A DNA stretch of 54,276 nt from a virus. Location of the stretch: IMG/VR virus record IMGVR_UViG_3300034102_000129, positions 1-54,276 of that record. One strand, written 5' to 3'. A program made the translations under genes and the position numbers. Below, in pieces: positions 9,356 to 41,978 of the stretch (its first letter is position 1; every line of letters starts with the position of its first letter). The notes under the pieces are model-generated. The model was given only the letters and a program-made list of their open reading frames with translations. It ran no database searches and was not told the DNA's origin.

Positions 9356-11335
9356 ATGATTGACAAAAACTACAACCCGCTTAACCCGATGGTTGATCAG
9401 GTCAAGAAGTTTCTTGACCAGAAGAAAGTCCCGCAGGAACAGGTCGTGCCGTTCCTGATGTCGCTGGGCTACCGTGGTTTAGCCGGTGCCGTGGCAGGGC
9501 GTATGCGGCTTGAGAAGGCTAGCGAGGGCATAAAGACTCTTCAACAAGCGCAGGGTCAAGCCCCAGCCCCGCCGAATGTTATCCAAGAAAATGCTATGCA
9601 GGCTCAGCAGATGCAGCAGGGCATTCAGCAAGCGTTGGCTTCGCGGCGACCCCCGATGCCGCCTCAACAGGCTCAACCTCCCGGCATGGCGGGTGGGGGT
9701 ATCGTTGCATTTAGTAATGGCGGTGGCCCGACTTCTTCCCAAACTTTTGACGAACTTGAAGACATGTTCCGCACCGGTACTCCTGCAGAACAGGCGCGAA
9801 TACTTCAGTGGGCAGAAAAAAATATGCCTACGTTTGCTCAATATTTGAGAAGCCCCGCTGTTGGTACAATTGCTAGCGGAGCAAAAAAAGTTGCTAAGGG
9901 TGCTCCAGCAATCGGCGGTTTAGCCGGTTTGTATGGCATGTCTCAGACCGACCCTAGAAATTTACAGAGCGAGTCTCGGCTTGCTCAACTTGGTATGGAC
10001 GTTGATCCAAATAGCGCAATAAAAACTTATGCAGCGGGATTAGCAGGTATAGCAGAATCGGCAATACCTTTTGCTGGGCTGTTCTACGACACCCCGCTTG
10101 ATAAAGCACAAGCCGCGTCTGATAAGCGTAGGCAGTTTATTTTGAATGCGCCGGGAGCGCAGACTAACCTCAATCCCCAAGAAACCGGGATTGCTCAAAA
10201 CTACATGGCGATTGTTCGTCAATACGGTGCCAATTCAAAAGAAGCGAAAGACTTTGAAACCAGATACCGTGATGCAATGGGTCGCGCTGCACCGGAAGCC
10301 GAAGACGCTTTGGCACAATATATGACTCAGTCTGCGGCTGGTGGACGAGGAGCGGGTGGTGGACAAGGAGCGGGTGGTGGACAAGGAGCGGGTGGTGGAC
10401 AAGGTGCAGGTGGTGGGCCTCGTTTGCCTAGCGTTTCTACTACAGCACAAGAGACCAAAACATTATCTGATTTGCGTGAACGGCTAAAAGGCATGGAAGA
10501 TGTATCCAAGCCCGAAGCGCGTGAAACAGCGATTGACAGAGAGATTGCTGCCCGTATGAAGCGTTACACCGATATGGGCATCATGAAGCCGTTTGACGAT
10601 GCCAAGGCTAACGTGCAAGGGCGTTTGAAAGAACTTGACGGCATCAAGGATAAGAACTTCTACAAGGCTATGGCTATGATGGGTTTCACCATGGCAGGAA
10701 CCCGTGGGTCGTTCTTCCAAGCCCTTGCAGCCGGTGGCGCAGCGGGACTGTCAGCCTACGAGACATTTGAAGAACGGCGTCAGGCTACGCTTGATAAGTT
10801 GCAAGACCGCATGATGAATATTGACATGGGTATTGCGAACATAAAGGAGAGGGCTGGCGCTGGCGCAGAAACGCGGGTAGACAAACTTGAGTCTGAACGC
10901 AACCGAGTTCAGGATCAAATTACTAATTTGCAATCGGCCCAAGAGACACTTGCTCAAACGCAGTCGTTTCAGTTGGCAATGTCAGACCGCGAAATTGCTG
11001 CAAGAGCGGGTCTACAGGAACGCCAGATTGCCGCCGATGCTGCACGAGACGATTCTCGATATGGCGGCTTGGGCAAGGAAATTGAACAAGAAATTAGTCG
11101 GTTTCGTCAGATTGCTCAAGATCCGAAAGCCCCAGCAAACGTGCGTGAAGCAGCGCGTAAACGTGTGGAAGAACTGTATAAAGAACGTGAACGTGCTACA
11201 CAGGTTGGTAGCGGCGGCTATCAGTCGGCCCTTGCGAGACTCGCGGGTAATCAAATCCTCGGATACAATTACCCTCAAATCGGGGCTGAAGGCCAAGGTT
11301 CTACCGAAGGCTGGGGCGATGTAACTGTTAGGTAA
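9356..11335 (+). CDS. internal virion protein-like, coiled-coil rich
   Basis: This 659-aa protein has a clear AAGGAG site seven bases before the ATG. Residues 1-60 form a helical N-terminal domain (MIDKNYNPLNPMVDQVKKFLDQ), then comes a proline/glutamine linker ending GMAGGGIVAFSNGGG, a phrase also echoed in the 921-aa protein (GMAGGGVIPAP). The middle holds a glycine-rich tandem repeat (GAGGGQ). Residues about 370-600 are strongly helical and charged (ETRVDKLESERNRVQDQITNLQSAQ). It sits between the Gln/Ala-rich protein and the 2201-aa polyvalent-type protein, so a role inside the virion or in DNA ejection is inferred. No catalytic residues were recognised. Confidence 0.6.
   Translation: MIDKNYNPLNPMVDQVKKFLDQKKVPQEQVVPFLMSLGYRGLAGAVAGRMRLEKASEGIKTLQQAQGQAPAPPNVIQENAMQAQQMQQGIQQALASRRPPMPPQQAQPPGMAGGGIVAFSNGGGPTSSQTFDELEDMFRTGTPAEQARILQWAEKNMPTFAQYLRSPAVGTIASGAKKVAKGAPAIGGLAGLYGMSQTDPRNLQSESRLAQLGMDVDPNSAIKTYAAGLAGIAESAIPFAGLFYDTPLDKAQAASDKRRQFILNAPGAQTNLNPQETGIAQNYMAIVRQYGANSKEAKDFETRYRDAMGRAAPEAEDALAQYMTQSAAGGRGAGGGQGAGGGQGAGGGQGAGGGPRLPSVSTTAQETKTLSDLRERLKGMEDVSKPEARETAIDREIAARMKRYTDMGIMKPFDDAKANVQGRLKELDGIKDKNFYKAMAMMGFTMAGTRGSFFQALAAGGAAGLSAYETFEERRQATLDKLQDRMMNIDMGIANIKERAGAGAETRVDKLESERNRVQDQITNLQSAQETLAQTQSFQLAMSDREIAARAGLQERQIAADAARDDSRYGGLGKEIEQEISRFRQIAQDPKAPANVREAARKRVEELYKERERATQVGSGGYQSALARLAGNQILGYNYPQIGAEGQGSTEGWGDVTVR
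10343..10414 (+). repeat. four tandem 18-bp glycine-rich coding repeats
   Basis: Four consecutive 18-bp units of the type ggacaaggagcgggtggt encode (G-R/Q-G-A-G-G)4. Units two and three are identical; the first and last differ by one and two bases. They form a flexible linker in the internal virion protein. Confidence 0.9.
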
Positions 11336-11340
11336 AGCAA

Positions 11341-14300
11341 ATGCCTATTTACGAAATTCGTGGGCCTGACGGTAAAACGTACAGCATCGAAGGGCCGCCG
11401 GGTGCTACTCGTGAGCAGGTTATTGCTGCTATCCAGTCACGTATGGCAACCAAGCAGGCCCGGTCAGAACAAGCCGGGTTCCTTGAGTCTTTCCGTGAGT
11501 CGGCACTTGGGCTAGGTAAGGCTCCAGAGGCTGCACGTTTTGCAGCGGCTGAACCCGGCACGGATGAGGCTAGAAAAGCCTTCCTTGAGGCGAATCGTCC
11601 CAAGAAAGAAACGACTAGTTTTGAGGAAGTCAAAGACCTCTCCTCGCTTGTTGACTGGGCTAAGCAAACCGCCGGTACTTCGACGGGTTATCTCGTTGCT
11701 CCTGCCGCTGCCGCTACGGTCGGCAAAATGCTTACCAAAGCCCCCGGTGCTGCCAAGGCTCTAGGTTACGGCACGCTCGGAGCGCAGTACCTCATCGATA
11801 ATCTAAGTCGTCAAGCCGCGACACAGGAAGAACAAATACAACGTGGCGAAGGCCCATCTGAGACCTCGTTGGCTAAAGCAGGTGCTGCAGCAGTTGGACA
11901 AACCGCGTTGGACGCGGTGGGTATCAGATTCTTCAAACCGTTGTTTGGGCAATTCCCGATCCTTCGCAATCTGCTAGGTGAGTCTGGTGAGAAGGCTGCG
12001 AAGGAGGCTGAAGACGCGCTGCTTGAGTCCGTACGTAATGGTACGTTGACTCGCGGTAGGGGAATCGTATCTGGCGCTGTCAAAGGTGCGGCGTTTGAAA
12101 TTCCGCAAGAAATTGCTCAAACCGTTCTTGAACGTGCTCAAGCCGGTTTGTCTCTGACAGATCGTGAAGCGCGGCGCGAATACACGGAGGCTGCAGCAGG
12201 TGCGGTGCTGTTGGGTTCGCCGTTGGGCGGTGCTTCGCAGTACTACCAGAACAAGGAAAAGATTGAAGAAGCGCAGCAGATTCAGTTTGCACGCGAGATT
12301 GAGCGAGAAGAGGCGCGGCAGAAAACAGAAGCGGCTAGAAAAAAAGCCGCCGAAGCCGAGCGTGAGACAGAAAAGGGTGTCAAGAAAGAGACCCGTGAAG
12401 CCAAGATTAGCGAACAACTCGACGCTGCCCGTAACGTTCTTTTTAACCTGACCAACCCTGACGGTACTCCGATTACGGTGGAGGCCGAACCGGGACAGTT
12501 TGAACGTGCATTGATTGGCTCAGGCATTCCGGCAAGGGACGCTAACAGGTTGCTTGGACGGCTCAAAAGAGAGTCTGTCATCACCGAGCGTAACCCTGTC
12601 ACGGGCATTCGTAGCATCATTCCTGAAGCCAAGCAATATGATTTGACGAAAGGGACAGAAGAAGTTACCACTGCTGCGGCTCCACCTGCTTCTGCACTGG
12701 CTGCGGCTCAAGTTACAACTGCGGCTGCCCCGGCCCCGGTTGCCGCTGAACCGGATAGAGGTACGACTGATGAATCAACAAGAATTGTGGCTCCAGCAGC
12801 AGGTATTGCAGAAACTGACACTGGAGCAATTCGAGCAGGCGTTGCACAGCCTGTACAAGAACGAAGAGCCACACGACCCCCTGCTACAGAGGTTGCAGAT
12901 ACCGGAGTGGTTAGCGTTGATGAAACTGCTGGGCAACCTGTTAATCGAGAAGAACCAGTCAAGCCTGCACTAAGTGATCTAAAACTTGAGACTTGGCAGC
13001 AGCGATTTGAACAGACGAAATCCCGATTTGATGAGGCTGATCCCGAGTCGCCCATCAATCTGCTTACTCGCATCAATCAACTTAAGCAAAAACTACCGGA
13101 TGGCGAGGGCGTAAAGTACTTAAACGACATCGAAAACATCGTTTCGTACCTCCGTAAAGGTGCGGATGTTGAGACTATTGCAGACAAGTTGGGCATGGAT
13201 CTGCCCGAAATTGAGTCCTATCTGGACGATTTGCGGAATCCTGAAGCCGAAGGGCTTCCTCCCATCATCGACGCAAATAACAAGCCGATACCTGAAGCGT
13301 TTGTAGAACAGAAAACTACTACCAAAGAAGGTCAAAAGGGTCGCACTATTGAGTCGGTATACAACCGTTTTTTGACGGCTAACGAAACGCCGTTGATAAC
13401 AGCAGCACGTTCACTTGATAGTCTGATCGACAAGTACGATGCGGATGACGTAATCAAAAACACTGGTGAATTGCGTGCGCGTCTCAACGAACGACTCAGC
13501 GAAATTGAAAAAGACCTAGCCGACCAAAAGGCTCTTCGCGCTGCACAGCGTGCTGCTAAAACAGAACGTGTCGGTGGGGAGACTGAAACCGAACTTGAGC
13601 AAAGAGAGGTTGCTGCCAGTCAACGCGCTCAAGCAAAAATTGAATCAGCAAACCAAACGGCAGGCATGGGGCCGGTTGTTAGCACGGAGTTGGCTAAAGC
13701 AAATGTAAACCTGCCCGACGTAGATCAGCAGGTCAAAGACGCCGTTGCTCAGAAAGACGCAAACAAGATTCTTGACGTTCTGTATGGGCTAAACGAAGAA
13801 CTTGGCAACGCAATTCCCGTAGGTGAAGCCCCTACTCCGCAGGTCGAGCGCGTCAAGCAAACGCCAAAGGAAATGACAAAGGGTCAACGAGCCAAGTTGA
13901 TCCGCAGCATTTTTGAAAAATCTATACCCACTGCTGAAAGCACCTCAAATCTGTTCGGTGAGCGTCCTGCTGTCGCCGTATCTGAGCGTGGCGCTGCCAA
14001 GCGTAGGATTGACGTAACCAAGTCTCTAATTGATACGCTAAGAAAAGTTGATCTTAGCGACCTTGGATTTGAACTTGAAGGCGATACCGAAGCCGATGCG
14101 GACGCTTTTGAGCGTATGCGTAAGCAGAACCGCCTTGCTGAATACGACCCCAAAACCAACGTCATCCGTCTGCGTGCTGAAGGTGTAAAGCAGAAAACAC
14201 TGCTGCACGAAATAGTTCACGCCGTCACTGTAAAAGTGCTGCGGCAGTATGAGACCGACCCGAATTCGTTGCCAGACAGTCAGCGCGAAGCAGCCGAACA

Positions 14301-17300
14301 TATCAACAAGATATATGGTTTGGCTAGCAAGAAACTCAAGACGCGGTACCCAAATGCGTTTGAGAGCGTGTACGAGTTTGTTTCGTATGCAATGACTGAG
14401 AACGCTTTCCAAAAAGATCTGTCCGAGTTGCGATCACCCAATCTGGCGAAGTACGCGACAAAGGCTGTCAAGGATTTCTGGACGCAGTTTGTAGAAGCGT
14501 TGATGCACATGTTTGACCTGTATCCGCTTGGGGGCCGCGAAGCCCTGTTTCAAGCAGAGAAAGCCATCAAACTTGAGCGTGATATCAACGATCCAAACAC
14601 ATCTGAAGCAAAAAAGAATTTGCTACGGCAACAGTTGGCCCGTATCCGTAAAGAGCGTATTCAGACCAGAGCGGGGAACTACCTGCTTGAGACTGCAGGA
14701 GCGTTTGAAGAGATACTGTCACCGCCACAAAAGGGCGTAGACGTTGCTCCGCTTGCTGCCAAGGCCGCACCTCCTGCAGAAGAACGTGATGTAAGTAAGA
14801 TCAAAGCCGAGTATCGCCGCAAACTTGAGAAAAAGCATCCTACGGAACCCGCCGTTCGTGGTGCCGTCAAGTTCCTCAAGACCCATGAAGGGTCAGAGTG
14901 GCTGATTCGCAAGTTCCAGAACGACCGTCGCCCACTCAAAGTGCTGCAGGACATCCTCGTTCGAGCAGGCAAGTTGATCGTAGGCGAGGAGAACTTTAAC
15001 AACCTGTATAGCCTCATCTCACTGTCGTCTGGCAATGCATTCCATGTCATGACACAGTATTTCCAGAAGGACATGCACGATGTCCACGAGGCTGTGGAAG
15101 CCTACGCCAAGGCTCGCAATTTAAATTTGATGGATGCCTTGAGCGACTTGAATCTTTACATGGTTGCCCGGCACGAACCAGAACGCAGGCTCATCAAATT
15201 CTTGCGTAACGTACCGCTTGATAACACCAAGTTGATTACGTTCGGTGGCGTAAGTAGAACTGCTGCCGAGCACCGTCGTGAGATTTTCAATCTGCTGCGT
15301 ACTAACGTTGCCTTGACCAAGGGCCAAGCCACGGCGTTGCGTAACTTCGTTGAAGGTCTTGCCGGATACAAGAACGGCAAAAAAGTTGGCATTGGGTCTA
15401 TTGATGTGAAGGCGGGCAAGTCCATGGATGCCCGTGCTAAACCCGGTAAATACACTGACGATATCAACGATGGCGTATACAACGTAGCCGGTGAGTTCAC
15501 ACCCAGCGAGTTGGAAAAGTTACGCAGTGCGTATCAGGTTGACCCACAGAAGGCGCTTGTTGATCGCATAACTGCGTCTATGAAGCGTATTCAAGACAAT
15601 ACTATTGAACGCGACAAGCAGGCTAACTACTGGTCGCAGCCTGTTGAAAACATCGTCAACTTCTACAACTTCCAGAACTACGTCCCGCTCAAGGGTAAGC
15701 CGGGGCAGGGTGAGACGGAAGATGAAAGCGAGTACAACTACACCGGCAGACGGCTGAGTGGTGAGTTGGCTGAGACTACGCAATCGTTTGAGGGTCGTAT
15801 CTCTGATGCCGATAACGTCATCATGCAGACGCTCGTTGACGGAGCCAAGTCTGCAATGCGTGCTGGCCGCAAAGATGTGACTCAAGCCATTAAGAACTTA
15901 ATTGAGCAAGGCTATATCGATGGCGTAAATTTGAATGGCGGCAGGAAGAACAAACCAATCCCGTTCCAAGACCGTGAAAGTCAACTTGAGTTGTCGAAAT
16001 ACAAAGGCGACGACAAGATCTATCACTACAACCCAGATGGGTCGGTTGAAGTTCTCAAAATCAACGATAAGCGTATGCTTGAGTCCATACGCCGTGTATA
16101 CCGCGAGAAGTCGCCGTTCATTGATATGGCTAACCGCATAACCAGCGGCATCGGTCAGTCTCACACCCGATACAACCCGGCCTTCCATCCGTACAACTTT
16201 GTCCGTGACGTACTGACCAACGCCTTCACGATGGGGGCTGAATTTGGGCCGGATAAGTCGCTGAAGTTTATTGGGCATATTTCGACCCGAGTTGCTGAAG
16301 GTGGCATGGCTAAAGCAGCCAAAGTCTCAAAACTCTATGCCGATGGCGATGTTGGCAAAATACAAGAACTTGCCAAGAAAGACTCCTTCACTGCCAGCAT
16401 ACTTGAGTACCTGCAAGAAGGCGGTCGCGTCTCCTACGTGCAGGGTCTAGCCATTCAAGGTCAGATTGACGAACTTGTCAAAGATATCAACCGTGGTAAG
16501 TGGGTTCGCGGTAAGGAAAAGATAGACAAGTGGGTCGATATCTGGACTGACATGTTTGAATTGACGAGCCGCGCTGCCGCTTACGAAACGGCAAAGGCCG
16601 AAGCCTTGGCACGGGGTATGTCAGAGAAAGCGGCACGGCAAGAAGGCGCTGCATACGCCAAGAACCTCGCCAACTTTGAACAAGTCGGTGAGTGGGGTCG
16701 CCAAGCCGGTGCGTTGTACATGTTCTTCCGGCCTGCTGCGACTGGTGCTGTTCGTGCGATTGATGCACTGATTCCAGCAATTCAAGATGTGCAGACAGCC
16801 GTTGATAGACTGCCAGAGTCAATTCGGAAAGATTCTGCGGCAGTTAATCGGTTCCGCGCCAATTTCATGAAAGAGAAAAAGAATGCTCAAGCGATGGCGC
16901 TTGGTCTTCTTGGAGCCGGGTTCACGTTGTACGTCATGGCGTTCATGGCTGCTGACGATGATGAGTTGGGTCGCAATGTAGTTTCTACGGAAGACATGTC
17001 GCTTTGGACACGTAATCTCCGTCTGCCGCTCGGCTTCTTGGGTATTGAACGCCTAAAGGACAGTTTCCTGCAGTGGCCGTGGGGCTTTGGTCTTGGCGCG
17101 TTTGGAGCCATGGGAGCGCAGGTTGCCGGTATGGCGATGGGTAGAGCGTCTCTGGCTGACGGCCTTGCCAATGCTACGACGATTGCTCTGGACTCCTTCA
17201 TCCCCCTGCCGGTTGCCCGGTTCAACCCGACTGACAATTTCCCAGCATGGATGCTTGACTCACTTGCTCCTAGCCTTGCGCGTCCGTTCCTTGAGTACAC

Positions 17301-21025: not shown

Positions 21026-21337
21026 TCAGATTGTGATGCCTACCATTTCCTCTATGTACCTCTTTGCATTGAACAAAGTCGGGGCCGGTAAAAGCCCCTT
21101 CTCCATGTCTTGCTTGACCAAATCCATGAAGACTTCAACTGTCTTGCGCTTGTTCTCTCGCACACCACGACCTCTGAACCACTTATACACGGTCATGCGT
21201 GAAGTCTCCAAAGCACGGGCTACATAGGCGGCAGGAAGGTTTGCCTCGACGCACAGCCTACCTAGTTGCACCCCAAGACGAGTTGGGTCTGCACGTTGTA
21301 AATCAAGTAAAAATTCTTCGCTGTACGAACGTGGCAC
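21026..21337 (-). CDS. helix-turn-helix DNA-binding protein
   Basis: This 103-aa protein has a GTG start with GAGGT four bases upstream. Residues about 20-58 (LGVQLGRLCVEANLPAAYVARALETSRMTVYKWFRGRG) are an HTH: a helix, the LPAAYVARALETS turn and a recognition helix MTVYKWFRG, as in XRE/Cro-like or transposase-like phage regulators. The following VRENKRKTVEVFMDLVKQ is basic and helical. It lies in the replication operon between the putative ssDNA-binding protein and the primase-helicase, followed by a hairpin terminator. It may control the operon or mark the origin; either role is inference. Confidence 0.75.
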   Translation of the reverse strand: MPRSYSEEFLLDLQRADPTRLGVQLGRLCVEANLPAAYVARALETSRMTVYKWFRGRGVRENKRKTVEVFMDLVKQDMEKGLLPAPTLFNAKRYIEEMVGITI

Positions 21338-25760: not shown

Positions 25761-27620
25761 TCAGCACTCTCCGTAGGATTGTCCAAACTTGGCCTCGCAA
25801 GCCACCGGTAGCCCCGCCGCCCAAGCCGGGGGCGTAGACATAATACTAGTAATGTATACTAATGCGTCCTGTAATTCACTAGTGGGTACAACACAAACTG
25901 CGGCATCGTGGACGGTCAAGACGGGTCGGTACCGCTTATTTATCTGAAGCATCTGTTCACCCACGATGATACGGGCCAGCGCCTGAACGATGTTTTCTAC
26001 CATCGCGCCGCCCCAGATACTTACCTTGCCCTTCCGAGATTCGTAAAAGTACTGCCGGTTTTCTAACGTTAACTTGGGATAACGCATGTACAACCCATTT
26101 GGTAGCCGGATACCGTGTGCGCTAACCCACACAGCGTTATGTTCGCCAAGGGTGTACTCCTGCGAACCCGTAGGCCATGCCGCCAAATGCCCCAAAGCGT
26201 TATCACACTCGCGCCAAAGGGCGGGAATTTTATCGTTCTCCTGCCGGTAAAGATCTACGATACGCTTTGCTTCATCCTCGCTGACAACAGCGCCGGGCGG
26301 CTGCGTCTTCAAAGTATGTCTTAATTTCGCTGCGCCAGTGCCATACCCTAGTCCGAGGATACAAGTCTTGCCGACAAAGCGTTCGACCGGATTGGCCTTG
26401 CTGATGGGCTGCTTATAGATCTTGGACGCGAAGACGCTATACACATCCTCACCGTTGGCGAACTGCTTGACCACATCGTCCTGTCCTGCAAGCCACGCCA
26501 AGACCCGCGCCTCGATCTGTGATGAGTCGCAGTTGATGACGTAGTGACCTGCCGGGGCCATGATGGCGTTCTTCAACGCCTTCTTTTTCTTGTCACGGCT
26601 AGGCAGGTTCTGCAGGTTCACGGAGTCAAGCCCAGACCACCGACCTGTGTGTGCGCCGTAATACTTCAGCGGGATGGGCAGCAGCCCCTTGTTCCTAGCA
26701 CCGATGCCGATGAACCGCTCGACACGCGACTCCTCGATGGTGGACTTAGTACCCAGACGCACCGCGCAAAGGTGTTGGACAACGGGGTCATCGTGTTCTT
26801 GAAGTGTGATGAAGCCTTCATCGTTCTTGGCGAGAGCATAGGTCTCCTTGCCCGTGGTCAGGCTCGTCTTCATGGGCGGCTCGATACCGAACGAGCGCAG
26901 CACCTCAGCAAACTGCGGGTTGCTTGCCAACTTGGCGCGGACTTCTTCCTCTGTACCAACCTTCAGCACGTCCATGAGGCTACGCAAGAGCGCGGCCTTC
27001 TCTTGTCTAATCTCATCTAAGCGATCTACAAGCAGCGCGTCGTTGATACGCAGCACGGGTTGGGTGTACATACGCAGCGTCATGTCGATCAGATGCAACT
27101 CGGATGTAGGGAAACCTTCAGCCAGAAGTGCGTTGAACAACTTGAACGTAAGTTGAGTATCGTTGATGCAGTATGCGCCGTAACGCGCTAAGTCTTCTGG
27201 CGTGAAGTCTTTGCGGTACTTGCCCAGAGCGTTGATGACCTCGGTACCCTTCTCGCCCAACTGATACCGCTCAGCCAGAGCCTTGAGAGAGCCACCCGCA
27301 TCCACGCCATGAATGGCACGAGCCATGCACAGCGTATCGAAATACTTAGCCGGGACGATGCCGTACGTGAACGCCAAGATAGCCCCATCAAAGAGCATGT
27401 TATGACAGAGCAGTGCGCTGTTTGCCCAGTCGATCTTGTCGAGATACGCCTTGACCTCGGCCTTGGTACCGCTGAACCACTCAGGTTCACCATCGTCAAT
27501 CTTTACGCTGACACCGATGACCTCAAAGCGCGGGTCGCGGATGTACTCCTCCGTTGTCATACGAGACAGGGAGAAGTCCTTGGCGTAGTACGTCTCGAAA
27601 TCAAGCGTAACAAAACTCAT
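25761..27620 (-). CDS. family A DNA polymerase with 3'-5' exonuclease domain
   Basis: This 619-aa protein begins with a DnaQ-like exonuclease (D7-F-E9-T, then LLCHNMLFDG and YCINDTQL with later acidic ligands). A family A polymerase domain follows: motif A DSSQIEARV near residue 365, motif B RFVGKTCILGLGYG near 400-415, and motif C VHDAAVC near 571. The SGLDSVNLQNLPSRDKKKK phrase is typical of the palm-fingers entry. Motif C has HDA instead of HDE: the catalytic Asp is present but the following Glu is not. There is no 5' nuclease domain, as expected for phages. Its ATG overlaps the previous stop (ATGA). Confidence 0.93.
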   Translation of the reverse strand: MSFVTLDFETYYAKDFSLSRMTTEEYIRDPRFEVIGVSVKIDDGEPEWFSGTKAEVKAYLDKIDWANSALLCHNMLFDGAILAFTYGIVPAKYFDTLCMARAIHGVDAGGSLKALAERYQLGEKGTEVINALGKYRKDFTPEDLARYGAYCINDTQLTFKLFNALLAEGFPTSELHLIDMTLRMYTQPVLRINDALLVDRLDEIRQEKAALLRSLMDVLKVGTEEEVRAKLASNPQFAEVLRSFGIEPPMKTSLTTGKETYALAKNDEGFITLQEHDDPVVQHLCAVRLGTKSTIEESRVERFIGIGARNKGLLPIPLKYYGAHTGRWSGLDSVNLQNLPSRDKKKKALKNAIMAPAGHYVINCDSSQIEARVLAWLAGQDDVVKQFANGEDVYSVFASKIYKQPISKANPVERFVGKTCILGLGYGTGAAKLRHTLKTQPPGAVVSEDEAKRIVDLYRQENDKIPALWRECDNALGHLAAWPTGSQEYTLGEHNAVWVSAHGIRLPNGLYMRYPKLTLENRQYFYESRKGKVSIWGGAMVENIVQALARIIVGEQMLQINKRYRPVLTVHDAAVCVVPTSELQDALVYITSIMSTPPAWAAGLPVACEAKFGQSYGEC

Positions 27621-28159
27621 GGGTCAACGCTCCATGTCTCCGTCTGCCGTTGCAACTTAGGCCACGCAACCTCGGTCGTGAAAGACTTATCCTTCACAAG
27701 AACATGGTTTGTTGGCTGCGCTGTGAATCTGCCGTTGTCTAACTTGACGAAATAAAACTCTTTGGATTGCTCTGGCTCTAGGCTGAACCCATCAAGCATA
27801 GGTACCGCCGTGAACATATACCGACCTTCATGCTCTGTCTTGTCTCGTAATTTTATTCGCATCGGCACGGCTTCAAGAAACGGATACTCCACTACACTGA
27901 ATTGATGCCCGTAGCAGTCCCAAGTTTGAGCGTCCCACGGTTCCCACCCTACGTCGTTGACCCTGTGCGCCATGTGATGAAGCGGTACGTTACGATATAC
28001 CGCTCCGCACTCCAACATGACGTGACATCCCCACGTTCTGCCGGGATGACTGACCAGACCAAACCACGCCACACGCTCCCAACCATCGTTGCCAAAAACG
28101 TTTGGTTCTACGTAGCAATATGTATGTCGGGGTAACGGCCCCGCCCCTGAGTAAATCAT
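27617..28159 (-). CDS. conserved phage protein of unknown function
   Basis: This 180-aa protein is rich in Trp, Tyr and His (YCYVEPNVFGNDGWERVAWFGLVSHPGRTWGCHVMLECGAVYRNVPLHHMAH). These features recur in conserved hypothetical proteins adjacent to phage polymerases, but no catalytic motif is evident. It is translationally coupled to the polymerase (ATGA) and to the upstream zinc-finger-like gene (ATGA). The segment FYFVKLDNGRFTAQPTNHVLVKDKSFT may form a small beta domain. No function is assigned. Confidence 0.6.
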   Translation of the reverse strand: MIYSGAGPLPRHTYCYVEPNVFGNDGWERVAWFGLVSHPGRTWGCHVMLECGAVYRNVPLHHMAHRVNDVGWEPWDAQTWDCYGHQFSVVEYPFLEAVPMRIKLRDKTEHEGRYMFTAVPMLDGFSLEPEQSKEFYFVKLDNGRFTAQPTNHVLVKDKSFTTEVAWPKLQRQTETWSVDP

Positions 28160-36198: not shown

Positions 36199-37374
36199 TC
36201 ACACCTCCACTTTTACTGTTTTGCCACCGTTCGGCGGCACAAAGTCACGCTTGCTTGTCACAAGCCACAATGTCGGACACATCACATCCCATTTGATATC
36301 GCTCTCAACGTAACCATCGGTGAACACCAACACACAGTCGGCTTTGTAGTTACGCTTGAGCATATGTTCGCTCACGCACGATACATGCGTGCCACCTCCG
36401 CCCGTGGGTTTCAACAACTTGGATATATCGTTGAACCCGTCTGGTGTGAACACCTGCTCGCTACTGACCGTCGTATCCCACCACATGACGCGCAGTGCAT
36501 CGGGGTGTACTTGCTCACAGATAGACTGCAACTCAGCGGCGAACTCGTTAATCATCGCAGCATTGATGCTGCCAGACGTATCGATGGCGACCACGATGTC
36601 GCCCACCTTCTCGCTGATGACTCCCGGCTGAATGATGTCATCCAGAATCATCCGTTTGTCGAACTTGCGATAGGTATGCTCATCGTTGCCTTGAGCAACG
36701 CTTGAAACGAACTCACGCAAGGCAGTCGCCCAATCGACCTGCGGCTGCAACGTCTCGGTGACCGACCTTGGCAACTTCTGACCAAACCGCCCTGCCAACA
36801 ACCCACCTTGGTGGATGGCTTCGTTGACTTGCTCGACATACTCCTTCATCTCCTTTGCCGACATCTGCTCAGCATTGCTCATGTCATGTTCATCAAGCGG
36901 CTGGCCCGCACCGTTGCTTTGCCCGCCCTGTCCACCGCCTTGTTCTTCCTCCTTCTCCAAGTGTCGGTAGATTTCGGGGTAAGACCATCCGTGGAACTTG
37001 GGGTCATACAAGCCACCGTCCGGTAACTTGATGAACGCCTTGTCCTTGATGTTCATGATTACATCATTGACTACATAGTCAGCCGCCATGTTCGCCAACT
37101 TGGAGTTCTTCTTCCAATACGGCAAGCCACGCACCGTGTGCTTGAACACTTTGTGTAGACCTTCGTGCAACTTCAAGCCGCGCACCTCGGGTAACATGAG
37201 TTTGTTGAGGAACGCCTCGCCATACTTCTCGTTGACACCATCCGTACAAGCGGTTGGTACGTTGTCCACGACAGTTGTCTTGCCCATCACCAACACACCG
37301 GCATACGCCGCCGTCTCGGGGTGACGCAACAGGTCAACCGTTGCTTTCTCCAGTTTTTTGATCGCTTCTTGCAT
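36199..37374 (-). CDS. VWA-like protein with metallopeptidase-like N-terminus
   Basis: This 391-aa protein has an N-terminal domain with H70-E-G-L-H74 (GLKLHEGLHKVF), as in the putative metallopeptidase half of DUF2201-type proteins. A glycine/glutamine-rich linker follows at residues about 143-160. The C-terminal VWA-like domain has a MIDAS motif D265-T-S-G-S269 (VVAIDTSGSINAAM), a threonine in GGGGTHVSC, and an aspartate in LVFTDGYVES. VWA proteins of this type partner MoxR AAA+ ATPases, and here such an ATPase is encoded just upstream. The target is unknown. Confidence 0.75.
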   Translation of the reverse strand: MQEAIKKLEKATVDLLRHPETAAYAGVLVMGKTTVVDNVPTACTDGVNEKYGEAFLNKLMLPEVRGLKLHEGLHKVFKHTVRGLPYWKKNSKLANMAADYVVNDVIMNIKDKAFIKLPDGGLYDPKFHGWSYPEIYRHLEKEEEQGGGQGGQSNGAGQPLDEHDMSNAEQMSAKEMKEYVEQVNEAIHQGGLLAGRFGQKLPRSVTETLQPQVDWATALREFVSSVAQGNDEHTYRKFDKRMILDDIIQPGVISEKVGDIVVAIDTSGSINAAMINEFAAELQSICEQVHPDALRVMWWDTTVSSEQVFTPDGFNDISKLLKPTGGGGTHVSCVSEHMLKRNYKADCVLVFTDGYVESDIKWDVMCPTLWLVTSKRDFVPPNGGKTVKVEV

Positions 37375-37389
37375 GATGCACCTCGTTAG

Positions 37390-38508
37390 TTAGACCAACA
37401 GTTCCGGGTTATCCTTTACAAACTGCGACACCGCCGCATTGTTCTTGGCGAGTTTGTGTAACTTCGGAGCGTAGACCATCGATACAAAGATGGACTGCAA
37501 CTCCTTCGTCGTGGCTCGTTTGATGAACATCATCGCGCTCGTCATCTCGTCGTTCGTACTGATGGCATCCACCAGATTGAACATCGTCATGAACAGCGCA
37601 GCGGTTTTCTCTGGCAAGCGAACGCTCTCGGGGTTGGTGAAGATGTCGTTCGGTTTGATCAAATCACTGTTCATCTTGAAGAAGTTCGCCATGGACTCGG
37701 CTGCTGCTTGACCCACGATGCCGCACATTGCAGCAAGTGATAAATCAAACCCAAGCACCTCCCACAACTTGACCACAGAGTCGTTCTTCTCAAGCGAACG
37801 GGGTGATACGAACGACACATTGGTCGAGCGTGGGCTGAACACGTACGGATTGCCCGACACATCCCCGTCTTTGTATGACGCAAACGCAGAGTCATTGAGC
37901 GACACCCAAGCGCGGGTCAGCGCACTGATGTTGTTCTCACCCGCCCACGCTGCCCACTGCCTTGAACTTGGCCCACGCATGTTGAGCAAGCCAATGCGAT
38001 TGCCAACGTGTGCTTCGATGTTGTCGTTCACACCGTCTGACGAATAGTTAGATGTGCCGAACACCCTGCTGCCATCCGGCAATCTACGGTCACCGATGTA
38101 CCGCTCAAGAATCAAGCGAGTGACCAGTGGCTTCAACAACTTCGGCAATTTGAGTATCTCGTCAATCATCACCACCTTCGGTCGCGGGTCAGTGAAGTCA
38201 ATCAGCCCACTGACATACTGCTCGATAGTCTTCGTCTCGCGGTCTGGCATATACATTGACAGGTCGTTCTCGCGCAGCGTACCGCCGTCGATATAGACAT
38301 ACTGATATTTGTCAGTCGGGAAGTTATCCCCCGGCTTGCGCCACTTGTCACCGTTGCGTTGGGCAAGCAACTTCAAGATGGAAGTCTTGCCTTGACCCGG
38401 TGATGACTGGATGACATAAGTCACGCTCTCGCCAGTCAACTCAATGAGTCGGGCGGCCTCGTTGATGTCAACGGATGGCGCAGTGTTGATAGTTGTAGAT
38501 TTAGACAT
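37390..38508 (-). CDS. MoxR-type AAA+ ATPase
   Basis: This 372-aa protein has Walker A S35-P-G-Q-G-K-T42 (VIQSSPGQGKTS) and Walker B V-V-M-I-D116-E117 (KVVMIDEILKLP), and the sensor/arginine region ALTRAWVSLND follows. It fits the MoxR-like family, which works with VWA proteins to remodel or insert cofactors into targets. A strong GAGGAG precedes the ATG. The 18-bp palindrome lies 20 bases upstream. It is the only AAA+ ATPase in the window besides the primase-helicase. Confidence 0.75.
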   Translation of the reverse strand: MSKSTTINTAPSVDINEAARLIELTGESVTYVIQSSPGQGKTSILKLLAQRNGDKWRKPGDNFPTDKYQYVYIDGGTLRENDLSMYMPDRETKTIEQYVSGLIDFTDPRPKVVMIDEILKLPKLLKPLVTRLILERYIGDRRLPDGSRVFGTSNYSSDGVNDNIEAHVGNRIGLLNMRGPSSRQWAAWAGENNISALTRAWVSLNDSAFASYKDGDVSGNPYVFSPRSTNVSFVSPRSLEKNDSVVKLWEVLGFDLSLAAMCGIVGQAAAESMANFFKMNSDLIKPNDIFTNPESVRLPEKTAALFMTMFNLVDAISTNDEMTSAMMFIKRATTKELQSIFVSMVYAPKLHKLAKNNAAVSQFVKDNPELLV

Positions 38509-38527: not shown

Positions 38528-38545
38528 TTCCACCCATGGGTGGAA
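38528..38545. promoter_or_regulatory. 18-bp palindrome, exact copy
   Basis: TTCCACCCATGGGTGGAA, a perfect inverted repeat, lies 20 bases upstream of the MoxR ATG, between two genes. The same sequence occurs exactly at 40433 and 41077 and in close variants at 39479 and 41961. In RNA it would form a seven-bp stem with a CAUG loop. Confidence 0.85.
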
Positions 38546-38549
38546 GTGA

Positions 38550-39458
38550 TTAATTGCCAAACCCAAACTTCGACAGGATGTCATCGACCTCTGCCTTGAC
38601 GTAGGCGCGGGTCGAGTCGTTCTTCTTCAACTCGTCCATGTCCACGCCAGTCAGCACCCGCTCCAGTTCAATGCGTATGGCATCCAACCGTGTGTCCCCG
38701 GCAGGGTTGAACTTCTTGAAGGTGTCGCAGAAAGCCAATGCTTTCTTGAGTGTTTCAGTATGCAAGCGACCGCGAGTGACCTTGAGTGAACCATCTTCAC
38801 GCTCGACCACATTCTCGCCACATGTGTGGGATATCGACTGCATGACCTCGACCAACTGATTGACCTGTTGATTGAGCATGTTGTCGATGGTGGACTGCGC
38901 TTGCTTGTTGAAATGATTGGTCAAGTCCTCGGCAAGGTCGTGGGCAATCTGCACACGGAAGTCACCCTGCGGTACTTCGGCGGTATACAGCCGCATGGTG
39001 AATTTGTTGCGTAGTTCTTCCACCGTGGGGTAGTCTTCGCGCCGAAACATCCCGTTCAACTTGAACGCCATGTCGCTCACCTTGTTGGGATATGCATTGA
39101 GGAAGTCCTCGCGCAACTCAATCAGTTTGGCTTCGAGTGCCTTGTACTCTTCGTTGAATGCGGGGTAGTTCACAATCGGCAAGATTCCCCACTGCCCTGC
39201 CCATGAATATGTTCGACGCTTGAACCAATTGCGTACGGTCTGGCGATGGTTCACCAACTTCTTGTGCTGCGGGTCACCGGCAAGCAAGTGTTTAGCGAAC
39301 TTACCGGCATCACGGTCAGTGTTCTTGAGCGCGGTAATCTCGTCGCTCACCTCGTCGTCGGTCTGTGTGCCAGTCCACACGGTCGTGCGGACATTGACCA
39401 GAATCGCAGATGTAGACAGATCGATCAGGCTCTTCGGCTTTGTCAATTGGATAGACAT
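38550..39458 (-). CDS. putative third component of the MoxR/VWA set, 302 aa
   Basis: This 302-aa helical protein begins MSIQLTKPKSLIDLSTSAILVNVRTTVWTG and continues with KALEAKLIELREDFLNAYPN, a long coiled segment (HFNKQAQSTIDNMLNQQVNQLVEVMQSI) and a C-terminal RAYVKAEVDDILSKFGFGN. Its place beside a MoxR ATPase and a VWA protein, and its N-terminal L..L.i.vWtG style, recall the DUF3150 proteins that accompany such pairs in phages and bacteria, but I am not certain. AAAGGAG lies before the ATG. The promoter at 39546 and the variant palindrome at 39479 lie just upstream. Confidence 0.5.
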   Translation of the reverse strand: MSIQLTKPKSLIDLSTSAILVNVRTTVWTGTQTDDEVSDEITALKNTDRDAGKFAKHLLAGDPQHKKLVNHRQTVRNWFKRRTYSWAGQWGILPIVNYPAFNEEYKALEAKLIELREDFLNAYPNKVSDMAFKLNGMFRREDYPTVEELRNKFTMRLYTAEVPQGDFRVQIAHDLAEDLTNHFNKQAQSTIDNMLNQQVNQLVEVMQSISHTCGENVVEREDGSLKVTRGRLHTETLKKALAFCDTFKKFNPAGDTRLDAIRIELERVLTGVDMDELKKNDSTRAYVKAEVDDILSKFGFGN

Positions 39459-39478
39459 TTGTTTGCTCCTTTGTGGAA

Positions 39479-39496
39479 TTCCACTCTTGGGTGGAA
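39479..39496. promoter_or_regulatory. 18-bp palindrome, variant copy
   Basis: TTCCACTCTTGGGTGGAA keeps the outer arms of the 18-bp palindrome but differs at three central positions. It lies 21 bases before the 302-aa gene and 43 bases downstream of the expected start of the promoter at 39546-39574. Confidence 0.7.
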
Positions 39497-39545
39497 AATT
39501 AATTACTTGATATCGGCCAAAAGTTTACGCTCTACCAGTATGAAT

Positions 39546-39574
39546 AGTATATCAAAAGTGTACATATAAGTCAA
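39546..39574 (-). promoter_or_regulatory. sigma70-like promoter for the 302-aa gene
   Basis: On the minus strand TTGACT (-35) and TATACT (-10) are separated by 17 bases. The intervening sequence is nearly the same as in the promoter at 40500-40528. The -35 overlaps the stop of the upstream gene, so this promoter adds transcription inside the leftward operon. Confidence 0.8.
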
Positions 39575-39960
39575 GCAACCATCGAACGATTGTTCGGCAT
39601 GAGCGGCACGTCGTTCATGGTCAGCCAGTCGTGCAGCACATGGACTGCATCACTGCTGTGTCCACCGACATGCCACACCTCGTTGAACTCGGGTTCAATG
39701 CCCTCCTCTGGGCCACAATAAGACGGGCCAACCTTCCAGTCGTAGATGGTCACGATGATGTATCGGTGTGCGTTGTAGTCGTGGAAGCGCAACACCCACT
39801 CGGCTTCAGTCTTGTAGGCATCTCCCGGCAGTGGCTGACCAAACAGTCGCACTAGGTCGCCGTACCGGACATTGATTACGCCTTGGTAGCATGTGCCACT
39901 TATTGCGTGGGGGTAGTCTTGGAACGCTTCGACTGACAACACTCTGTTCTGTAATGACAT
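39571..39960 (-). CDS. conserved phage protein, 129 aa
   Basis: This 129-aa protein begins MSLQNRVLSVEAFQDYPHAISGTCYQG and is rich in aromatic residues and histidine (WVLRFHDYNAHRYIIVTIYDWKVGPSYCG, FNEVWHVGGHSSDAVHVLHDWL). A compact alpha/beta fold is likely. I recall similar proteins of unknown role in phage early regions. GAAGGAG precedes the ATG. Confidence 0.55.
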   Translation of the reverse strand: MSLQNRVLSVEAFQDYPHAISGTCYQGVINVRYGDLVRLFGQPLPGDAYKTEAEWVLRFHDYNAHRYIIVTIYDWKVGPSYCGPEEGIEPEFNEVWHVGGHSSDAVHVLHDWLTMNDVPLMPNNRSMVA

Positions 39961-40012
39961 GATTAGGTCTCCTTCTATTAATTAAGTGATAGGCACGGCC
40001 AACTTGGTTGGC

Positions 40013-40216
40013 TCAAAACGGATGGACAGGGCGTGGCTGTGGCGGCTCGTCGAGCGGCAGTTCCATCTGCTCCCAACGCTCGTTGAGTTCGCGCCCAAAC
40101 TGGCGCATGGCGTCTTCAATGGCTTCGTAGTGCATCTGCTCCATCTGCCGTTGCCATGCCTCGTCGCTGTCCTGTGCAACCCACCAATCGGCGGGAATGT
40201 CTCGCGGGGTAGTCAT
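40013..40216 (-). CDS. small acidic helical protein
   Basis: This 67-aa protein (MTTPRDIPADWWVAQDSDEAWQRQMEQMHYEAIEDAMRQF...) is helical, Trp-rich near the start and proline-rich at the end. GGAGGATTTTACCG precedes its ATG, which overlaps the upstream stop by ATGA. No family is recognised. The 52 bases after it, before the next gene, hold a weak GCCAA/TTGGC hairpin without a T-run. Confidence 0.5.
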   Translation of the reverse strand: MTTPRDIPADWWVAQDSDEAWQRQMEQMHYEAIEDAMRQFGRELNERWEQMELPLDEPPQPRPVHPF

Positions 40217-40476
40217 CGGTAAAATCCTCCTTTGTTGTTGATGCCTTTCAAGTCTTCCAAGTCAGTGACCAGTATGTAGTTTGATTTGTGTAGGGGAACT
40301 ACACACCGTACTACCTGCTGGGCATTCGCTTCGCCACACGGCATACACAGGTAGATGCCAAGCGCCCATCGCCTAGCATCTACCGCTTCGCCGCACTTCA
40401 CACACAAGTCACTTGTCTCGTCAGATTCCGTTTTCCACCCATGGGTGGAAACATAATTAAGCGTTGCTCGCGTCAT
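40213..40476 (-). CDS. small zinc-binding protein, first gene after promoter
   Basis: This 87-aa protein starts at ATG 40476 with GGGGAG six bases upstream. Its codons 9-15 (STHGWKT) are written over an exact copy of the 18-bp palindrome, so the operator-like site is inside the gene. Residues 25-45 (CVKCGEAVDARRWALGIYLCMPCG) form a CxxC...CxxC zinc ribbon. The tail is KSNYILVTDLEDLKGINNKGG. No characterised family was recognised. Confidence 0.65.
   Translation of the reverse strand: MTRATLNYVSTHGWKTESDETSDLCVKCGEAVDARRWALGIYLCMPCGEANAQQVVRCVVPLHKSNYILVTDLEDLKGINNKGGFYR
40433..40450. promoter_or_regulatory. 18-bp palindrome, exact copy inside the 87-aa gene
   Basis: TTCCACCCATGGGTGGAA lies 43 bases downstream of the expected start site of the promoter at 40500-40528, the same spacing as at 39479/39546. 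It is translated as part of the 87-aa protein. Confidence 0.85.
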
Positions 40477-40499
40477 GATTTTCTCCCCATTTCCCATAT

Positions 40500-40528
40500 A
40501 GTATACCAAAGGTAGACATATAAGTCAA
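40500..40528 (-). promoter_or_regulatory. sigma70-like promoter for the small-gene cluster
   Basis: On the minus strand TTGACT, a 17-base spacer and TATACT stand 24 bases before the 87-aa ATG. The spacer begins TATATGT like the second promoter. It should drive leftward transcription away from the iteron region. Confidence 0.85.
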
Positions 40529-40566
40529 TACTTCAAAGAACGAAAGTTGTGGAACGCGGATCGAGT

Positions 40567-40961
40567 TTGTTCCAGTTGTTCCAGTCTTGTTCCAGTTTTT
40601 TGTTTACATATGCGACAGAGTTTGGAAAACGGAGCGGGAGTGAGAGAAGTGTAAGTGATTGAATTTATTAGATAGAATAGAATTAAGTTTATATATAGTA
40701 GTAGAAAGTAGTGAAAAATGGTGCCTTTGTTCCGTTGTTCCAGTGTTTTAGGGGGAGAGCGGTTGGCAAAATGATAAGTTGATTCACCGCGCTGCAAACT
40801 TTCTCGCGCACGATTTTAAAATGCTTTCCCCCGCCCTATCCCGAAAAAACTGGAACAGTGGAACAAACCCGTTTTTTCTTAATGTAATCAAGCACTTGCG
40901 TGTTCCAGTCGATTTTGGAAACTGGAACAAAACTGGAACAAACACCTAAAAACTGGAACAA
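40567..40961. repeat. iteron array around an AT-rich core, candidate origin
   Basis: TTGTTCCAGT or its complement occurs about eleven times. The plus orientation has exact copies at 40567, 40576, 40587 and 40735, a weak copy at 40727 and a 9/10 copy at 40900. The minus orientation has exact copies at 40921, 40932 and 40952 and 9/10 copies at 40849 and 40857. Between the two clusters lies an AT-rich stretch (about 40650-40720). Opposed clusters around an AT-rich segment are the plan of a replication origin. The region has no supported gene. Confidence 0.75.
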
Positions 40962-40999
40962 AACATGATTGATTATATAATTAATCAACTTCAACCCAA

Positions 41000-41027
41000 T
41001 TTATAGGTTAATTACGTAATCAATCAA
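41000..41027 (-). promoter_or_regulatory. possible leftward promoter in the origin region
   Basis: On the minus strand TTGATT, a 16-base spacer and TATAAA are in a good arrangement. A transcript from it would run through the iterons towards the 87-aa gene and could prime replication. It overlaps one of the TGATTA-type palindromes, which could control it. Evidence is limited to the motif match. Confidence 0.4.
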
Positions 41028-41076
41028 TTTTGACCCCATCTAAAATGGCTAATTACGGCAAAATCTCAATTTGATT

Positions 41077-41094
41077 TTCCACCCATGGGTGGAA
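41077..41094. promoter_or_regulatory. 18-bp palindrome, exact copy in the origin region
   Basis: TTCCACCCATGGGTGGAA occurs between the iterons and the 203-aa gene. No matching promoter is visible at the 43-base spacing found for other copies, so a role other than promoter control (for example origin control) is possible. Confidence 0.8.
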
Positions 41095-41212
41095 TGGCCT
41101 GAATGGTGCGGCGGTTGATTGATTACATAATCAGCCACGCGATGTCGCGCAGCCTCGCACGCTCACACAAACAAGGAACTGGCATCGAAGATGCGCCCTG
41201 CAAAACGCAGGG

Positions 41213-41250
41213 CAAAAAAAAAGCCCCGACCGGACTAGTCCGGTCGGGGC
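41213..41250 (-). terminator. strong terminator of the 203-aa gene
   Basis: On the minus strand a perfect 28-base palindrome (41223-41250, arms GCCCCGACCGGAC) is followed by nine T and then a second GC hairpin (CCCTGC/GCAGGG). It stands 16 bases after the stop of the 203-aa gene and should separate that transcript from the origin and the downstream operon. Confidence 0.9.
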
Positions 41251-41266
41251 AAGGTAGGCGCGTTAG

Positions 41267-41878
41267 TTACTTCTTGGTGTAGGTTTCAATTTTGGCAAGG
41301 TATGCTGCTTCTGCTGCTTTAATAGCCTCTTGAGGCCATGCAGCGGGGACACCCTTCGACCTAGCCGTGGCGTGCATCTTATCGATACCGGCTAGTGCTT
41401 TCATGCTGCGAGTAATCAGTTCGCCGGGAACTCTAGCCACCCCGGTTATGCCGCGTTCGCGTCGGGCTATCGTTTCAATGTAGGTATAGCGGTTTGATGC
41501 GTTAGTCTGCACCGCCTTACGCATTGCAGCGACCACCTTGTGACGGCCCGGCTCCGATGTTTTCATCTGACCAAGTTCGTGCGGGGTCGTTCTCATCACG
41601 GTGTCGGCATTGAACGACAGCACTCTACTAGTGTCTGCTTTCTTGGCATCAGCAGGTGTGACCATTGTGTAGGTGTCACCTTCCCGCAGGAAGAATCGCG
41701 TCGGGAATTTAGCCTTCGCACGATTCAACAGACCGGCGCGGATATCGGCCTCATCCTGTTCGGTTACCTTTTCGGGGAAGGTAGGTACGATAGCGACGAT
41801 AGCCATTACTGCGTCGATAAGTGAGTCGGCAGAGTCATAGGCTTTTTCTGCAGCGGTAATAAGTTTAGCGTTAGACAT
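41267..41878 (-). CDS. control-region protein of unknown function, 203 aa
   Basis: This 203-aa protein starts at ATG 41878 with CGGAG eight bases upstream; longer in-frame starts lie inside the promoter. It is helical (MSNAKLITAAEKAYDSADSLIDAVMAIVAIVP), with a basic middle (GQMKTSEPGRHKVVAAMRKAVQTNASNRYTYIETIARRERG) and a C-terminal helix (AIKAAEAAYLAKIETYTKK). I do not recognise a family. It is transcribed alone: its own promoter with a palindrome copy, and a strong terminator. It is a candidate for the protein that binds the palindromes or iterons, or an early host-takeover protein. Confidence 0.6.
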   Translation of the reverse strand: MSNAKLITAAEKAYDSADSLIDAVMAIVAIVPTFPEKVTEQDEADIRAGLLNRAKAKFPTRFFLREGDTYTMVTPADAKKADTSRVLSFNADTVMRTTPHELGQMKTSEPGRHKVVAAMRKAVQTNASNRYTYIETIARRERGITGVARVPGELITRSMKALAGIDKMHATARSKGVPAAWPQEAIKAAEAAYLAKIETYTKK

Positions 41879-41930
41879 GATGTAGTCTCCGATTGTGTGA
41901 ACGGGGTGCGATATTGCAACCCGTGAGTTA

Positions 41931-41959
41931 CTTATAGGGTAACGCATTGCTCAAATCAA
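41931..41959 (-). promoter_or_regulatory. sigma70-like promoter for the 203-aa gene
   Basis: TTGATT, a 17-base spacer and TATAAG on the minus strand. A start near 41924 gives a leader of about 46 bases before the 203-aa ATG. A variant palindrome lies one base upstream of the -35. Confidence 0.8.
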
Positions 41960-41960
41960 G

Positions 41961-41978
41961 TTCCACCTATGGGGGGAA
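41961..41978. promoter_or_regulatory. 18-bp palindrome, variant beside the 203-aa promoter
   Basis: TTCCACCTATGGGGGGAA differs from the consensus at two positions. It abuts the -35 of the 203-aa gene promoter, a position suited to an activator or a repressor. Confidence 0.7.

Follow-up and report, generated by a model that had tools for sequence, protein, structure and literature searches.

The conserved inverted repeats (CIRs) of phiC31 are palindromic operators that occur in multiple copies around the early region of the phage. In the L5-type (cluster A) mycobacteriophages, the repressor has many short sites, the stoperators, some of them located at promoters and most of them in short intergenic gaps (PMC9283540, PMC6550527). 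These sites run with transcription, one of them lies at the repressor's own gene, and their consensus diverges with the repressor between subclusters (PMC9283540, PMC6550527). Protein roadblocks of transcription are known (reviewed in PMC10310618), and the controller protein C.Kpn2I has binding sites both next to a -35 element and within a coding sequence, and at the latter it halts RNA polymerase (PMC6237814). Here we describe five copies of an 18-bp palindrome, TTCCACCCATGGGTGGAA, in the phage record IMGVR_UViG_3300034102_000129, which was analyzed over its whole length of 54,276 bp (hereafter the window) and which belongs to a freshwater-type phage. The array is real and strongly conserved, and it is very probably regulatory. 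Our preferred reading, to which we assign a rough probability of 0.6, is that each copy is a DNA operator (TTCCACC-N4-GGTGGAA) bound by a dimer of one regulator, which the phage encodes and which controls a leftward early module; the operators would probably work as stoperator-like roadblocks.

Results

The palindrome is found in three exact copies and in two copies with two mismatches each, as follows (aa, amino acids; ORF, open reading frame; RBS, ribosome-binding site):

38528-38545, S1: exact copy; intercistronic, between the stop codon of the 302-aa gene and the RBS of the ATPase gene, 20 nt upstream of the ATPase ATG (38508)
39479-39496, S2: two mismatches, TTCCACTCTTGGGTGGAA (sense TTCCACCCAAGAGTGGAA); leader of the 302-aa gene, about +44 to +61 of promoter P2, 21 nt upstream of the 302-aa ATG (39458)
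40433-40450, S3: exact copy; inside the 87-aa ORF (40213-40476, minus strand), about +44 to +61 of promoter P3, at nucleotides 27-44 (codons 9-15) of the ORF, 27 nt after its ATG (40476)
41077-41094, S4: exact copy; noncoding, pivot of a segment inverted between clades
41961-41978, S5: two mismatches, TTCCACCTATGGGGGGAA; abutting the -35 hexamer of P5, the promoter of the 203-aa gene, 83 nt upstream of the 203-aa ATG (41878)

An original prediction, made by reading the sequence alone, had reported the three exact copies and the location of one of them within the coding region of an 87-aa protein, and both statements were borne out by our scan of the genome. The two near copies also lie where they had been placed, although each has two mismatches rather than "two or three." The proposed proximity to gene starts holds for four of the five sites (S1, S2, S3, and S5), but not for S4, which sits in a noncoding stretch of ~740 nt behind the 203-aa gene, distant from any gene start. 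Matches of the TTCCACCCATGGGTGGAA type were expected 0 times by chance in 100 shuffles, and besides the five sites no further match with up to three mismatches was found in the full record. In an unbiased genome-wide count of repeated palindromes with 6-bp arms, the TTCCACCCATGGGTGGAA word ranked first with four copies, against a maximum of two in simulated sequence. The motif is not found at an equal density in the near-complete relative G001 either, and its sites are kept in close relatives, so that the two checks proposed with the original prediction (density elsewhere and conservation) came out in favor of the array. We found no match for an array of this kind in the open-access literature.

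An exact-word scan of 2.9 million viral contigs (IMG/VR) matched only ten contigs, all from relatives of the same phage group, which have two to six sites each at homologous positions. Some of these palindrome-bearing relatives show identities of 80-84% for the 302-aa protein and of 65-72% for the 203-aa protein. Between the window and the other subclade, the 20-bp flanks on each side of S3 and S4 show 15-55% identity (ungapped), and the palindrome is identical. The S5 copy has one mismatch in relatives outside the window's own closest group, and the 40 bp adjoining it are 70-100% identical between relatives. In the relative L019, the S3 codons STHGW are replaced by STQEW, which matches L019's own S2 allele, and the outer arms are unchanged. 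These alleles show that S3 is under constraint at the nucleotide level, and they suggest an exchange between copies. The L019 copies at 9009-9026 and 9963-9980 look homogenized together with their promoters, the P2 core being that of P3 of the window and S3 being that of L019 S2. L020 has an additional gene inserted, and a sixth site lies behind it, ahead of the small gene that comes next.

Three promoter-like sequences accompany the sites:

39546-39574, minus strand, P2: TTGACT-17-TATACT with TG before the -10; -35 at 39574
40500-40528, minus strand, P3: TTGACT-17-TATACT with TG before the -10; -35 at 40528; a near-copy of P2
41931-41959, minus strand, P5: TTGATT-17-TATAAG; a weaker match, conserved in relatives

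P2 and P3 are the two best sigma70-type promoter-like sequences of the genome, both with an extended -10. The palindrome center lies 64 bp from the first -10 base at both of them, and 58-64 bp in relatives. Since the ATG of the 87-aa ORF precedes its palindrome and that of the 302-aa gene follows it, the constant is the distance between palindrome and promoter and not that between palindrome and start codon. The score of P5 alone is not significant, 9 of 12 matches being expected several times by chance in such a region. Taken together, the common sequence, the nucleotide-level conservation, and the link to promoters and gene starts support the earlier suggestion that the copies are sites of one regulator.

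The following genes are referred to below:

36199-37374, minus strand: VWA/DUF2201 metallopeptidase-like protein gene, the next gene downstream of the ATPase
37390-38508, minus strand: ATPase gene (phrog_1297, N4 gp24-like), behind S1
38550-39458, minus strand: 302-aa protein gene with no assigned function, behind S2
40213-40476, minus strand: 87-aa protein, zinc-ribbon (DksA-like, weak), holding S3 in frame
41267-41878, minus strand: 203-aa protein gene, candidate regulator
21026-21337, minus strand: XRE-type helix-turn-helix (HTH) protein of 103 aa, second and weaker regulator candidate

A large terminase, portal, head protein, DNA polymerase, helicase, and exonuclease were recognized in the record, which identify it as a phage. 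A strong intrinsic terminator (12-bp stem and T tract) is located behind the 203-aa gene at 41223-41250, and a ferredoxin-like gene (phrog_3704) is part of the replication cluster at 27617-28159.

The ATPase/VWA/302-aa module is also present in the phage G019 (64,980 bp), at 34-50% identity, but with a different palindrome, TTTATTAACAGNTGTTAATAAA, within it. This word occurs there in 12 places (up to three mismatches) against 0-3 expected, many of them immediately ahead of an RBS and ATG and some within genes, in frame. A scan with TTTATTAACAGNTGTTAATAAA added over 20 other contigs that carry this module; most of them have 2-11 of the sites, and window-type (TTCCACC) sites are essentially absent from them. 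The consensus of 110 sites from this sister clade (18 contigs, some overlapping) is AATTTATTAACAGNTGTTAATAAA, an extended palindrome. An RBS-like sequence and a start codon follow within 80 nt in 82 of the 110 sites, 67 of which have them within 21 nt, whereas 49% of random sense positions, used as a control, lie within 80 nt of a start; most sites are found 2-21 nt before gene starts. Their orientation is biased as well, with 65 centers of the sense type against nine of the antisense type in 11 representatives, while the window sites are too symmetric for orientation to be judged. Because relatives of the module carry another palindrome in the same places, the layout is conserved and the word is clade specific.

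Wider relatives were chosen by common HTH, replication, or structural genes. Three of them (G012, G014, and G016) have similar replication genes but neither the ATPase/VWA/302-aa/203-aa module nor the palindrome, and the same 6-bp-arm search revealed no repeated palindromes in G014, G020, G021, and G022. Weak TGACA-N3-[TC]GTCA-like palindromes occur in G021 (L226) at 10214, 12346, 14326, and 15860, two of them just upstream of 87-aa-like and ATPase genes; they are perhaps a third palindrome type.

The arms of the window word were also found in an unrelated phage of 122,894 bp and 64% GC (G010, or L158; IMGVR_UViG_3300037467_001050). It carries four perfect sites and one near TTCCACC-N4-GGTGGAA site within 3.2 kb (11367-14517), upstream of leftward genes, and all five fit TTCCAC-N6-GTGGAA. 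No regulator shared by the two phages was found, their only common gene being the terminase at 33%.

In the TTTATTAACAGNTGTTAATAAA-type contigs, the counterpart of the 203-aa gene by position belongs, where found, to a different family (171 aa in G019), whose members in these contigs are 40-55% identical to that of G019. No remote homology between the two families was detected. Among the compared phages that share parts of their genomes, the 203-aa family was found only alongside TTCCACC palindromes. Both palindrome types come with the 87-aa, 302-aa, ATPase, and VWA proteins, which therefore do not alone account for the change of word. The 203-aa protein is the best candidate for the binder, since it is its positional counterpart that changes together with the palindrome; this assignment is drawn from co-occurrence.

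The surroundings of S4 have two further features:

41038-41131: segment of ~94 bp centered on S4, inverted relative to L020, L023, L006, and L010
40567-40961: TTGTTCCAGT iterons in both orientations; possible replication origin

The S4 segment of the window and L019 is 74-79% identical, on the opposite strand, to those of the four contigs named (E values of 1e-10 to 1e-15), and the sequences on both of its sides are collinear between subclades. In the window it is flanked by inverted repeats of ~22 bp. Palindromes of the type TGATTANNTAATCA lie beside the iteron cluster (40970-41133), and an imperfect inverted repeat of ~170 bp at 40713-40878, which is ~62% identical to its own reverse complement, is also present in relatives. 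The TTGTTCCAGT iterons were found in G019 as well, at 5.2-5.5 kb. A single protein binding both iterons and palindromes, as plasmid Rep proteins do, is disfavored because G019 keeps the iterons while its palindrome differs.

Discussion

The placement of the sites suggests how a DNA-bound regulator might use them. Most of them would act downstream of the transcription start, that is, in the transcribed leaders behind P2 and P3, in the 87-aa gene, and between genes 5' of an RBS. Sites lying about 50 bp past promoters, inside a gene, or between genes are poorly suited to block initiation and well suited to block elongation. A bound dimer would most simply serve as a roadblock to the host RNA polymerase, similar to a stoperator, and would silence the module, probably when early transcription gives way to later transcription. 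The position of S5 at the -35 of the 203-aa promoter could provide autoregulation, either by repression or by activation. No integrase or known repressor was recognized in Pfam and PHROGs scans of the main ORFs, and so the use of the sites may be an early-to-late shut-off rather than lysogeny; scanning the ORFs also revealed no lysogeny genes.

Several points weigh against this proposal. The candidate binder was reached by sequence comparison, and AlphaFold gave only poor models for the 203-aa and 302-aa proteins (predicted local distance difference test, pLDDT, of 64 and 47, respectively), that of the 203-aa protein having no significant match in the PDB. The unrelated phage with the same arms has no detectable homologue of either the 203-aa or the HTH protein. 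S4 has neither a clear promoter nor a gene start, and many DNA-bound repressors do not block RNA polymerase (PMC10310618). Finally, the orientation bias of the sister-clade sites and their position before the RBS would fit an RNA mechanism as well.

Such a mechanism had also been put forward in the original prediction, as hairpins that control processing. Hairpins with a 7-bp stem and a 4-nt loop, in leaders and intergenic gaps, would be read by an RNA-binding protein or nuclease of the phage and would control processing or translation. Most of the sites are in fact probably transcribed, S1, S2, and the extra site of L020 lie just 5' of an RBS, the sister-clade sites run with transcription, and the exact copies S1, S3, and S4 have predicted folding energies of -9.9 to -14.8 kcal/mol. 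The pattern of variation points the other way. Over ten distinct window-type site sequences, including the five of G010, there is no covariation at all: five of the seven arm pairs are invariant, and every departure in the remaining two leaves the bases unpaired (C-A and C-U in the sense RNA). Moreover, it is the four central bases, the would-be loop, that vary while the arms stay fixed. This would be expected of a dimer that contacts two half-sites, whereas most protein-bound RNA hairpins show the opposite pattern. S5 lies upstream of the conserved P5, although read-through from upstream genes is possible in L020 and L010. The hairpins predicted for the sister clade are weak (-2.8 to -5.1 kcal/mol) and their arm variation is mostly uncompensated, with no convincing covariation, and the palindrome has no match in Rfam. 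We consider the hairpin explanation unlikely, and the suggested control of processing is unsupported by our data.

If the sites are DNA operators, they might alternatively belong to the 103-aa XRE-type protein. XRE dimers bind palindromes of this size. No other ORF among those scanned encodes a clear HTH protein, and all relatives of sufficient length to show it have this one. Nevertheless, an HTH protein 73-77% identical to it occurs in G012, G014, and G016, all of which are devoid of the palindrome, so that the two do not go together; in these phages, the recognition helix differs at three positions from that of the window and the module is also missing. Conversely, G010 carries the palindrome and no detectable protein of this kind. 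An XRE-type binder is thus disfavored and, in our view, improbable.

In G010, a phage with 64% GC in which we found no regulator shared with the window, five sites with these arms precede leftward genes; this would be accounted for if both phages had hijacked the sites of a host transcription factor. We scanned one genome per species for 84,980 bacterial and archaeal species, with the exact CATG-centered word only, and obtained two singleton matches, which is the chance level and represents no enrichment. Since related phages with the module also use a different palindrome, a host factor seems very unlikely. Least probable of all is a nonregulatory DNA element (a replication, packaging, or nuclease site, or a small mobile palindrome), which would suit S4, located in a possible origin next to iterons and AT-rich palindromes and at the pivot of an inverted segment, but not the remaining sites, which follow promoters and gene starts, nor the retention of the iterons in G019 with a different palindrome.

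The reading as operators of a phage-encoded regulator may be extended, tentatively, to both clades. Widespread uncultivated phages with the ATPase/VWA/302-aa module might carry palindromic, transcription-oriented stoperators, whose word (TTCCACC-N4-GGTGGAA or TTTATTAACAGNTGTTAATAAA) would be swapped together with a fast-replaced regulator gene at a fixed place (203 aa or 171 aa). If this were true, it would represent an L5-like specificity system outside the actinophages, built on a new family of DNA-binding proteins. Even the narrower proposal, if correct, would add another phage, from an uncultivated group, that silences a gene module through many copies of one site at gene starts. Having a common module but different sites, the two clades offer a direct test of how repressor and operator specificity change together, and they provide a short list of possible new DNA-binding regulators, with the 203-aa and 171-aa families first.

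Among described systems, the phiC31 CIRs have a different sequence and belong to an unrelated phage. The operators of lambda and P22 are likewise palindromic and placed at early promoters, but they form adjacent clusters over divergent promoters, whereas most of the present sites are found about 50 bp past a promoter or in the gaps between genes. As with C.Kpn2I, one site (S5) adjoins a -35 and another (S3) lies inside a gene; that protein, however, belongs to a restriction-modification system and has another motif, and no homologue of controller proteins was identified here. With the L5 stoperators, the window and the sister clade share multiple copies of one conserved site at promoters and in short intergenic gaps. 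As in L5, the sister-clade sites are oriented with transcription (65 vs. 9), the candidate repressor gene has a site of its own (S5, at the 203-aa gene), and the word differs between clades. On the other hand, the L5 sites are asymmetric, 13 bp long, and bound by a monomer, and 20-30 of them are spread genome-wide, whereas here we found 18-bp palindromes, with an extended palindrome in the sister clade, and five to six sites in one module. No L5-like repressor was recognized in Pfam and PHROGs scans of the ORFs searched, gp71 itself not being compared directly. Because they are palindromes, fewer in number, and limited to a single module, the window sites are not members of the L5 stoperator family, but by analogy they may act in a stoperator-like manner.

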